NCBI GenBank assembly: GCA_018821715.1
Contig: JAHJLN010000113.1
Coordinates: 1 to 43,903, forward strand
From: Pseudomonadota bacterium
GTDB lineage: Bacteria; Desulfobacterota; Desulfobacteria; Desulfobacterales; Desulfobacteraceae
Direction: 5' to 3'
DNA: 43,903 bases
Below, in pieces: positions 27,049 through 30,159 of the stretch. The translations under genes were made by a program, and so were the position numbers. Numbering within the stretch: position 1 is the first letter of the stretch; each line of letters begins with the position of its first letter. The notes under the pieces were generated by a model. It searched no databases. It was not told where the DNA came from and worked only from the letters and a program-made list of their open reading frames with translations.

Positions 27049-30000
27049 TCAGTTCTGGGCCTGCCTGAGGTGTATGATCCTGCCAAGTGCCAGATCATAT
27101 TCGTTCCAGTCATCCAGATAGGAGCTTAAGGTTTCCCGGTAATGATCAGCTGCTTTTTTTGTGTCTTTGTCCCCTTCTGCCCACAGCCCCAGTGCTGTGT
27201 GAAGGGTAGTGAGTTTTTCAGGATTTTTTCCGGCAAGTTTAATCAGTTCCTTGTCATCGGGTTTTAAAACAAGGTGTTTGATGATAATGCGATACCAGGG
27301 AGCATGAATTTTATTTAAAAATTTTGTTAAGTGATCCCGGGATTCATTTTGCTTTCCCATGATGTTCAGGATTTCGCCTTTTAATAATCCCAGGCTGAGG
27401 CTTAAGGCAGATTCCCGGGTGGGCTGCTTGAAATACAGATCAATGAAGTCAAGTGCCTTTTGCCATTCAGCGTTTGTGGCATGGTAAAAGGCAACTCTGC
27501 CGACAATTGTCCTGTTTTCAGGTGCCAGCTCAAGAAGCTGGATATAGAGTTGTATTTTTTCTTCATGGCTTGATTTGTCTGACTCAAACTGGTTAATCAA
27601 TGCCGTCATGGTGTCCCTATGGTCGGATGCTGTTTTCCTGTATTCTTTGGCTTTTTGTCTAAAGGCTTCAATGTCTTTTTTGTGCGGCGCTTTATCTTCC
27701 AGATAGGCTGCAAGTTCTGTCTGGATATGATTCAGTCTTGAAAAAGAAAGATAATATACCCAGTCATTGATATTGGCACTTAAAATAGATTGTTTGAATA
27801 TTTTAGCAGCATGGCCCAGTTCATTGTTTTTTTCTGAAATGAGTCCTTCAATAAACAGCCGCCAGCTTTTTTCGGATCGATTCTCATAATCAATAAAGTC
27901 AGCCGTCATTCTTTTTTTATCTTTTAATACGGTTGCAAGATATCCTAAAAATTCATCTTCCTGGTCCCAGGTCATGGTAAAGAGGCTTTTTGTGAGGGCA
28001 TTGGTTTTTTCGCGAAAGTTTATCCACTCGATAATATAGAGCATCAGCCGGGACGTTATGTTTTCCTGTTCGATCAGGGACAGTTTATTAAAAAAATATC
28101 TGCTCTTATCAAGATTGCGGGTACAAAAGTTCAGCATTCCTGCTGCATATAAAAGGACAGGGTCTTTGCTTGTTTTAAGCATGGTTTCACTTAGGTCTGC
28201 GGCTTCCTTGAATTTATTTTCAACTGCAAGGCCGGTAATCTGTTCAAGCTTTGATCCCAGAGAAAAATCAAGAAGCCCATCCCATTTGGGCTGGCCTGTT
28301 TTAATGGATTCAATAAATTTTGCCGGCCTTGAAATGGGCAGGATGAGGCCAAAATCCGACAACGGTGTGGTGATCTTGAAATATCCGCTTGTCTGATCTG
28401 TTATCACCCCGGATGCAATCCCGATGACATGGCCTTTGTCATTGATGGCAGGCCCCCCGCTGTTTCCTTTATAAATCGAGGAATCCACCTGTATGATTTC
28501 TTTGGAGGTCCTTCTGACATACCCCCTTGTAATACTGGTATTGATATGGTCATCCTGGGTTCTGTTTCCCAGGGGAAATCCTAAAATTACAACAGGAGAC
28601 AGACGCTGGATATTATCTGATGAAATTGCTGTTTCAAGGGGTAAGGGCTTCAGGCTGGGGGGCAGGGTATCTATTTTTAAAACCGCAAAATCGTTTTTAA
28701 AGGGAGATTTGATCATTTCGCCGGTTTTGGCAGTTGACCGTGGGACACCGATGATTCTCAGGTTGCCGTCACCACCGGTGCTGTACGCAGATGAAAGATA
28801 ATACGCATCAGATAATTCCACACTGTTGCCCAATGCCGGCAAGCGGTTAAAGGCTTTTTCTCCTTCAAACCATAAATACATCCTGTAATTAAATTCAACC
28901 GGTTTTTTTAACAGGGCATACTGACCATATACCTGGAAAAGGGAGGTGTCGTCAAGCCAGGGGCAGGCAACATGACGATTGGTAAGAAGATATCCGCTGC
29001 TGTCCACTAAAAAGGCCGTACCTTCCACTTTGTTTTTGTAAACAATCTGATCCATATCCGACAGCCAGTATTCCACCATTAGAAAGGCAACTGAACTGGC
29101 ATAGGATTCCACAAAACTTGAAACAGCCACTTGTTTTTTGTTTTTATCGAAATTGACATACAGCCATGAGATGGCACCAAAGGCAACGATTCCCACAATA
29201 ATCAGCATCAGAAACACAACCATTTTTTTAAACCATTGCAATTCATTGATCAGCCCGGGCTTTTTTTTATAGGGCGACGGCTCTTGTTCAGGATAGGGCA
29301 GACGGTCTAAAATGCGGGATAAAGCAGACACAACCTTGTCCATGGTTTGAGGCCGCAGGTCCGGGTCGTCCGACAGCATTATTTTGATCAGAACGGCAAG
29401 TTCAGGGTTCAGCCCCTCCAAACTATCCACTTTTGAGGAAAAGTCTTTCAGATTGTGATCTGCGGTTAAAAGTTCAATAAAAATTTTTCCAAGGGACCAG
29501 ATAGCGCTTTTAAAATCAATGGCCCTCTGGTTGATTATATCAGGGTGACTTTCCAGCAGTTTTTGCAGCATGGGGCCATGATGAGTCGCCCTGGCATTCA
29601 GGAACCTGGAAAGCTTATAGTTGATTTTTACATGAAGATCATTTGTTTTGTCTTTAGGAATCAGGATATCATCAAGAATCAGGTAGGGCATAAAATGGTC
29701 ATTTTTATGCAATGAATCAAGGACAGATGCAATATTGCGAAAAAGGGTGACGATTCTGCGCTGGTCATTCAACAGACCTGATACAAAGATTGAGCCCCAG
29801 TCGGCAGCATCAACCCATTCGCTGACCCTGTACCAGAGATCGTCATTGCTTTTTTTAATGGCATAATGCTGGACAAAATGCTCTGACGGCAGTTTTTTGA
29901 GTTCCTCAAGTTCTTTTTCAAGCCGTTTGGCAACACGGTCATCCACGCCGGATTTTTCTGTAAATAATCTGATGGACACCGGCTTTTCACCATCTCCCTT

Positions 30001-30159
30001 TACCGCTTTGCAGACAAGAGAGGAGTGCCCTTCGTGGATAATGGTTAAAATTTTGTAATCATCAATAAATTTTATGCCGTCTACGATCCCGCTGCCGCAG
30101 GCCGGGCAGGTCGTAATTTTTTGAGAGAGAAGTTGTCCGCATGATTTGCATCTTTTCAT
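27049..30159 (-). CDS. Zinc-ribbon / pseudokinase / TM / trypsin-like protease / TPR protein
   Basis: 1036 residues in five parts. Residues 4-21 are a zinc ribbon (CX2C...CX2C). Residues ~33-285 resemble a Ser/Thr kinase domain but lack the catalytic residues: the VAIK lysine is replaced (VSIRLF), the HRD loop reads HFM, and DFG reads NYK (180-182). Residues ~312-336 are a membrane helix. Residues ~375-610 are a trypsin/DegP-like protease with an intact triad: His396 (LTNRHVAC), Asp490 (KNDFAVLKID) and Ser567 (YKGNSGGPAIN). The remainder is TPR-like helices. Topology should place the pseudokinase in the cytoplasm and the protease and TPRs in the periplasm. It is likely a transmembrane signalling or quality-control protein; the ligand is unknown. 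Confidence 0.85.
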   Translation of the reverse strand: MKRCKSCGQLLSQKITTCPACGSGIVDGIKFIDDYKILTIIHEGHSSLVCKAVKGDGEKPVSIRLFTEKSGVDDRVAKRLEKELEELKKLPSEHFVQHYAIKKSNDDLWYRVSEWVDAADWGSIFVSGLLNDQRRIVTLFRNIASVLDSLHKNDHFMPYLILDDILIPKDKTNDLHVKINYKLSRFLNARATHHGPMLQKLLESHPDIINQRAIDFKSAIWSLGKIFIELLTADHNLKDFSSKVDSLEGLNPELAVLIKIMLSDDPDLRPQTMDKVVSALSRILDRLPYPEQEPSPYKKKPGLINELQWFKKMVVFLMLIIVGIVAFGAISWLYVNFDKNKKQVAVSSFVESYASSVAFLMVEYWLSDMDQIVYKNKVEGTAFLVDSSGYLLTNRHVACPWLDDTSLFQVYGQYALLKKPVEFNYRMYLWFEGEKAFNRLPALGNSVELSDAYYLSSAYSTGGDGNLRIIGVPRSTAKTGEMIKSPFKNDFAVLKIDTLPPSLKPLPLETAISSDNIQRLSPVVILGFPLGNRTQDDHINTSITRGYVRRTSKEIIQVDSSIYKGNSGGPAINDKGHVIGIASGVITDQTSGYFKITTPLSDFGLILPISRPAKFIESIKTGQPKWDGLLDFSLGSKLEQITGLAVENKFKEAADLSETMLKTSKDPVLLYAAGMLNFCTRNLDKSRYFFNKLSLIEQENITSRLMLYIIEWINFREKTNALTKSLFTMTWDQEDEFLGYLATVLKDKKRMTADFIDYENRSEKSWRLFIEGLISEKNNELGHAAKIFKQSILSANINDWVYYLSFSRLNHIQTELAAYLEDKAPHKKDIEAFRQKAKEYRKTASDHRDTMTALINQFESDKSSHEEKIQLYIQLLELAPENRTIVGRVAFYHATNAEWQKALDFIDLYFKQPTRESALSLSLGLLKGEILNIMGKQNESRDHLTKFLNKIHAPWYRIIIKHLVLKPDDKELIKLAGKNPEKLTTLHTALGLWAEGDKDTKKAADHYRETLSSYLDDWNEYDLALGRIIHLRQAQN

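Follow-up and report, generated by a model that had tools for sequence, protein, structure and literature searches.

Introduction

HtrA/Deg proteases such as DegS, DegP/DegQ, AlgW, HhoA and Deg2/Deg9 carry a PDZ domain in their canonical form, and DegS has an N-terminal transmembrane (TM) segment. In PknB-type Hanks kinases the kinase domain comes first and is followed by a TM segment, with PASTA domains on the outside. Bacterial kinase folds that are dead as enzymes have been reviewed, and the review names the families ActPs1-3, GLW, DLHK, CP1 and DYD as well as EssB/YukC and MviN, many of which are membrane-linked (PMC12599244). LapD-LapG is a case in which, according to the consulted part of the source, a protease in the periplasm is governed by the cytosolic state on the other side of the inner membrane (PMC3032545).

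The gene described here lies in the window, by which we mean the whole stretch of 43,903 nucleotides that was analysed. It encodes a single-gene pseudokinase-HtrA membrane protein, which occurs in sulfate-reducing bacteria and some relatives. The protease fold and triad motifs are common to this protein and the HtrA/Deg family, whereas a TPR-like solenoid takes the place of the PDZ domain and a large zinc-ribbon pseudokinase, predicted to be cytosolic, precedes the TM segment. With PknB-type kinases it has in common the fold (Z ~21), the C-lobe IWSLG and RP motifs and a TM segment straight after the kinase, whereas its catalytic motifs are altered and the part predicted to lie outside consists of protease and TPRs instead of PASTA domains. 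A literature search for this architecture, whose reach excluded most subscription papers, found no description of it, and the words "trypsin" and "peptidase" are absent from the main text of the pseudokinase review (PMC12599244).

Domain organization

The gene is one open reading frame on the minus strand, a detail missing from the preliminary description, with five parts in series (Table 1). In the window protein Pfam places Pkinase at residues 35-271 (E 4.7e-10) and Trypsin_2 at residues 380-581 (E 2.3e-18), and both domains were found in 16/16 scanned members. The preliminary description had put a zinc ribbon first, a TM segment in the middle and TPRs last, and all three were recovered. Zn_ribbon_3 matches residues 1-24 under its cut-off (Pfam, E 0.0029), but C4 is present in 75 of the 76 members covering the position. 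One TM segment was located at residues 313-331. The Pfam TPR match is weak in the window protein (E 0.061), and TPR_2 was found in 14/16 scanned members. An assembly artefact is ruled out by the identical domain order across many genomes.

Table 1. Features of the pseudokinase-HtrA gene (window coordinates).
Feature	Position	Strand	Basis
Whole gene, 1036 aa	27049..30159	-	Open reading frame; orthologues in other genomes
N-terminal zinc ribbon, residues 1-27 (C4, C7, C18, C21)	30079..30159	-	Zn_ribbon_3 sub-threshold; C4 conservation
Pseudokinase domain, residues 28-292	29284..30078	-	Pfam Pkinase; fold match; motif loss
Single TM helix, ~residues 312-332	29164..29226	-	Hydropathy; predicted structure
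HtrA/Deg-type serine protease domain, residues 345-632, H396/D490/S567	28264..29127	-	Pfam, alignment, model
Helical TPR-like solenoid, residues 633-1036	27052..28263	-	Model helical, mostly high pLDDT; TPR_2 in relatives

Structure prediction, which had been proposed as a check, returned a kinase fold, a TM helix, an HtrA-type protease and a helical C-terminal part (mean pLDDT 84.1, pTM 0.65). The TM segment lies inside one long predicted helix (303-356), which is of low confidence in part. The pLDDT falls below 50 in the linker 292-313, at 562-565 directly ahead of Ser567, and at 585-602. We take the latter two stretches to lie near loops that are mobile on HtrA activation.

The protease had been described as trypsin-like with an intact triad of His396, Asp490 and Ser567. 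The triad is intact at these positions and in 81/81 aligned members, and from the intact triad the protease is apparently a working one. The label trypsin-like can now be narrowed, as the protease is of the HtrA/Deg type rather than a generic trypsin. A separate model of the protease domain (pLDDT 80.5, pTM 0.83) gave fold matches to Deg9, Deg2, DegQ, HtrA1, DegP and DegS with Z 21.5-23.2 among the 50 matches listed, the solved protease domains closest to it include DegS and AlgW, and a profile search of the protease placed HtrA proteases first (E down to 9.4e-14). A PDZ domain was not found in the window protein (Pfam hits to E 5) or in 16 members (to E 0.01), and in the model helices, not a PDZ domain, come after the protease domain. 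The protein is therefore HtrA-like in its protease domain and, with no C-terminal PDZ domain found, not a canonical HtrA protease.

Spread and conservation of the family

To collect relatives, two family motifs, of which one is within the kinase part, served as seeds for a scan of genome_contigs (84,980 species). The scan gave 94 stretches confirmed as encoding relatives, of which 80 were kept, and their titles include Desulfobacula, Desulfosarcina, Desulforhopalus, Desulfofustis and one SAR324 bin. Desulforhopalus singaporensis DSM 12130 and Desulfosarcina alkanivorans PL12 are two strains that carry the gene. Within the window's GTDB family, 35/86 genomes match at E <=1e-10, some of the matches being partial, and among good-quality genomes of that family 20/42 have a match at the same threshold. 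As 51/86 genomes of the family lack the gene at the threshold used, it is dispensable in many of them. A sample of the phylum gave 4/395 at E 1e-20, with the window's own genome counted and two candidates scored per genome among the matches listed.

Three comparisons were made. The 81-member alignment comprises loci from L032 on with frames of at least 700 aa, excluding the duplicates L033 and L036 and shorter fragments. The 70-row alignment holds 69 genome_contigs loci and the window, excluding members that contain X or fall short of 930 aa once trimmed. A separate comparison of kinase motifs used 24 frames of at least 1000 aa. Mean pairwise identity in the 70-row alignment reaches 57.1% in the pseudokinase and 56.3% in the protease; the TPR part has 38.2%, and the linker, TM and post-TM segments have 22.6-31.3%. 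The pseudokinase is thus as conserved as the protease, which indicates that the dead kinase is under selection. The distant member L032, 27% identical, still matches both Pkinase (below its cut-off) and Trypsin_2.

Copies that depart from the usual state were also seen. The chromosome CP070746.1 carries two family copies (L073 and L100), and in L166 (G499) the gene copy is broken, with pieces across several frames. In L168:2185-3069 (G055) and L164:10071-10973 (G527) the pseudokinase half stands alone in a frame of ~300 aa, and the copy in G055 is followed by genes that read as rarA and der. These pseudokinase-only copies could mean that the half works on its own, or that the gene has simply decayed.

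Loss of the kinase motifs

According to the preliminary description the kinase-like half had lost its ATP lysine, the HRD aspartate and the DFG motif. In the window protein VAIK is VSIR, with Arg at position 64, HRD is M157-P158-Y159, and DFG is N180-Y181-K182; this mapping agrees with profile alignments to ULK3 and ULK1, and the glycine loop is degenerate (HEGHSS). The Lys, HRD Asp and DFG Asp of an active Hanks-type Ser/Thr kinase are thus all replaced in the window protein. For the first two residues the loss is family-wide: the beta-3 Lys is Arg in 77/77 members covering the site (81 aligned), and the HRD site reads I/M, P and then H (54), Y (24), R (1) or G (1), with Asp in 0/80. The claim on DFG applies to the window but not to the family, since 57 of 80 members have Asp as its first residue and 23 have Asn. 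Asn180 and Tyr at the HRD site co-occur in the same 19 rows of the 70-row alignment, and these 19 rows make up the window's clade, which a single branch separates from the rest (support 100, quick tree), as expected from one change. The DFG Asp was therefore lost in the window's clade and not in the others.

Other positions are strongly kept. The second DFG residue is Tyr in 77/80 and the third is Lys (K182) in 80/80, the position of the catalytic-loop Asn is Asp (D164) in 79/80 and in 70/70 of the 70-row alignment, and the latter also has S113-E114-W115 in 70/70 and the alpha-C Glu in 65/69. The model has a bilobal kinase fold that matches PknB, PknA and many eukaryotic kinases, tied at Z ~21 over ~240 residues. 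The changes in VAIK, HRD and DFG make catalysis by the usual route very unlikely, yet a charged pocket is preserved. There is good reason to expect from these motifs that the kinase fold carries out no ordinary phosphotransfer, and the conservation of R64, K182, D164 and S113-E114-W115 suggests that the pocket has been kept.

Relatives with intact kinase motifs, which would have pointed to a local loss, were looked for and none was found among the 81 members or in the collections searched. A kinase-only profile was run against 241 genomes of the order. In 37 of them it found 39 matches at E <=1e-40, and 35/39 of these sit in frames of at least 997 aa. A sharp gap follows, the next seven matches lying at E 6.9e-11 to 7.8e-9. 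These next-nearest kinase domains of the order belong to other proteins: in their seven loci the protease profile matched nothing at E 1e-3 (frames of at least 300 aa, some cut at locus ends), and among the lines listed HRD is visible in L170, L171, L172 and L174. For the collections searched, local decay of an active kinase is rejected on the motif loss across the family together with this search, and the proteins form a conserved family.

The consulted sections of the review allow a comparison with the described pseudokinase families. GLW pseudokinases are proteobacterial with a TM segment after the kinase, and in them GLW replaces HRD, whereas the site here reads I/M-P-H/Y with one R and one G in third place (PMC12599244). 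The DYD family likewise has a beta-3 Arg; it lacks the alpha-C Glu and has a DYD motif, whereas here the alpha-C Glu is kept (65/69) and the third residue is Lys in 70/70 (PMC12599244). CP1 proteins are without TM segments, in contrast to the present protein (PMC12599244). Of the seven reviewed families, motifs and TM segments thus exclude DYD, GLW and CP1, and ActPs3 was compared by its described motifs, deletions and taxa only (PMC12599244). Likeness to the MAD6 kinase of the methylation-associated defence system was seen in the kinase part only, among the stretches listed. Membership in this system (mad6) is rejected, with 40.4 bits vs an NCBI cut-off of 460.

Membrane topology

Among the 70 members compared, one TM-like segment was found in 69 and two in one, using a simple hydropathy cut-off. 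The 15 residues ahead of the segment are richer in K/R than the 15 behind it in 65/70 members, equal in 5 and poorer in 0, and the mean net charge flanking the segment is +4.0 on the kinase side vs -0.4 on the protease side. By the positive-inside rule this bias predicts a cytosolic pseudokinase with the protease and TPRs in the periplasm. Such an N-in topology is a rule-based prediction with good support, and an arrangement with both domains on one side, which would have spoken against the original proposal, is disfavoured by the single TM segment and by a charge bias that is opposite in none of the members.

Gene neighbourhood and mobility

The gene's two neighbours in the window, a DUF3795 gene that converges on it and a hybrid histidine kinase gene that diverges from it, are both on the plus strand, so that the gene is apparently transcribed alone here. 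Neighbours were surveyed at 84 loci, with genes called crudely as frames of at least 80 aa. The neighbours most fixed in position are rarA (19 loci) and der (17 loci), all on the opposite strand and in the window's clade. Same-strand neighbours include a thiolase-like gene, found 1-4 genes upstream in 10 loci of the window's clade and immediately upstream in 2 of them, and one further gene in 8 loci. The gene immediately upstream runs in the same direction in 37/72 loci and the one downstream in 31/74, so the pseudokinase-HtrA gene may be part of operons in some genomes other than the window's. No immediate co-directional neighbour family occurs in more than 3 of the 84 loci (3 Desulfofustis loci, cluster 23), and there is therefore no conserved operon partner.

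Phage records gave no match to the family, and no relative was confirmed on viral contigs, which makes phage cargo unlikely. Plasmid cargo is also unlikely, as the plasmid search returned two weak matches alone, to the protease only. A plasmid search for the L032 subtype gave partial matches to the protease part, covering at most 23% of the query among the matches listed.

The distant member at L032:17-8741 (G061) lies directly downstream of a TIR-TPR gene, and further upstream is a RelA/SpoT-TPR-SLOG-RyR gene, SLOG being matched as LSDAT just under its cut-off. Judged by these domains, the surroundings appear to be a conflict- or alarmone-like signalling cluster. The window's own genome encodes on contig C87 (L125:802-3204) an 800-aa protein with cyclic-nucleotide-binding, Hanks kinase and PP2C phosphatase parts, in which the kinase looks intact, so that writer and eraser are within one chain. 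Contig C79 of the same genome (L132) holds a secreted-looking trypsin-like protein of unusual make-up, which we would guess may be contamination.

Discussion

The best explanation of the data is, in our view, a bitopic inner-membrane regulatory protease under inside-out control, with a probability of roughly 0.4. Inside-out signalling had been proposed in the preliminary description, and the family-wide motif loss and the predicted topology bear it out in part, while control, a cytosolic ligand and proteolysis are what we infer. In the scheme, held with moderate confidence, the pseudokinase would act in the cytosol as a receptor or docking head. A cytosolic ligand or partner would bind to its pocket (R64, E83, D164, D/N180, K182) or to its surface. 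Binding might alter subunit packing along the TM helix, and this change could move the loops of the periplasmic HtrA domain from a resting to an active conformation and back, with the TPR solenoid picking the substrate. The signal would flow mainly from inside to outside, in cis and within one polypeptide. The equal conservation of pseudokinase and protease, the kept pocket residues and the low-pLDDT stretches near Ser567 speak for this scheme. Against it count the two pseudokinase-only copies, the lack of the gene in 51/86 genomes of the family at the threshold used, and the neighbour survey, in which no recurring immediate co-directional gene pointed to a partner. LapD-LapG is a precedent that supports cytosolic control of a periplasmic protease; it consists of two proteins, with a c-di-GMP receptor and a cysteine protease, whereas the same control is proposed here for one polypeptide with a dead kinase and a serine protease (PMC3032545, consulted in part). 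A more specific version, in which the pseudokinase is a ligand receptor that allosterically gates the HtrA domain and the TPRs replace PDZ as substrate reader, all in a one-polypeptide inside-out switch, is possible and should be taken as tentative.

Simple scaffolding or outside-in signalling would fit the same anatomy. The pseudokinase might only anchor and dimerise the protein or recruit a complex, as EssB/YukC does in T7SSb, and the protease would then not be switched but serve quality control, either constitutively or driven by misfolding. Substrates themselves can activate HtrA proteases, and this would suit such a role. However, a bare anchor need not keep pocket residues, and here these are conserved besides the fold (K182 and D164 in 70/70; D164 in 79/80 of the 81-member set). 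The membrane pseudokinases EssB/YukC and MviN do work by scaffolding or recruitment in the consulted sections of the review (PMC12599244), and we consider this explanation doubtful but with a real chance of being correct. If signalling ran from outside to inside, the TPR/protease part would detect a peptide in the periplasm or stress in the envelope, and a cytosolic partner would receive this signal through the pseudokinase, in a loosely DegS-like manner. The presence of DegS and AlgW among the closest solved protease domains is consistent with this, and TPRs are natural peptide-binding parts. However, no PDZ domain was found, no immediate co-directional neighbour recurs across the 84 loci, and no folded region is less conserved than the TPR part (38.2%), which would be odd for a fixed sensor. 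Outside-in signalling is therefore unlikely.

The conserved charged pocket, with D180 in 57/80 members, might instead serve another catalysis, such as AMPylation, glutamylation or similar, through R64, D164, D180 and K182, and SelO and SidJ are precedents in the consulted sections of the review (PMC12599244). However, D180 became Asn in the window's clade and the protein was kept, so the acid is dispensable there, and the glycine loop is degenerate in the window protein; we regard other catalysis as quite improbable. More improbable still is a defence or conflict effector in which a cytosolic dead-kinase sensor releases the protease. The L032 gene does directly follow a TIR-TPR gene near the RelA/SpoT-TPR-SLOG-RyR gene, and PADLOC models were matched (RT-Protease_XI, E 2.7e-18; PD-T4-6, 1.5e-13; mad6, 1.5e-11), but every PADLOC match spans the kinase or the protease domain alone, as generic domains would. 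Moreover, no relative was found in phage records or confirmed on viral contigs, the plasmid search for the family gave two weak protease-only matches, and the gene adjoins the housekeeping genes rarA and der in the window's clade.

If the one-polypeptide inside-out switch is correct, the family would provide cytoplasm-to-envelope signalling without phosphorylation or a second protein. Inside-out control would also mean that HtrA proteases can be governed in cis from the cytosol, a complement to LapD-LapG. According to the consulted sections of the review, a function is known for few bacterial pseudokinases (PMC12599244). In this family the dead kinase is fused to a measurable output, the predicted protease activity on the far side of the membrane, and what a dead kinase senses would thereby become directly testable.
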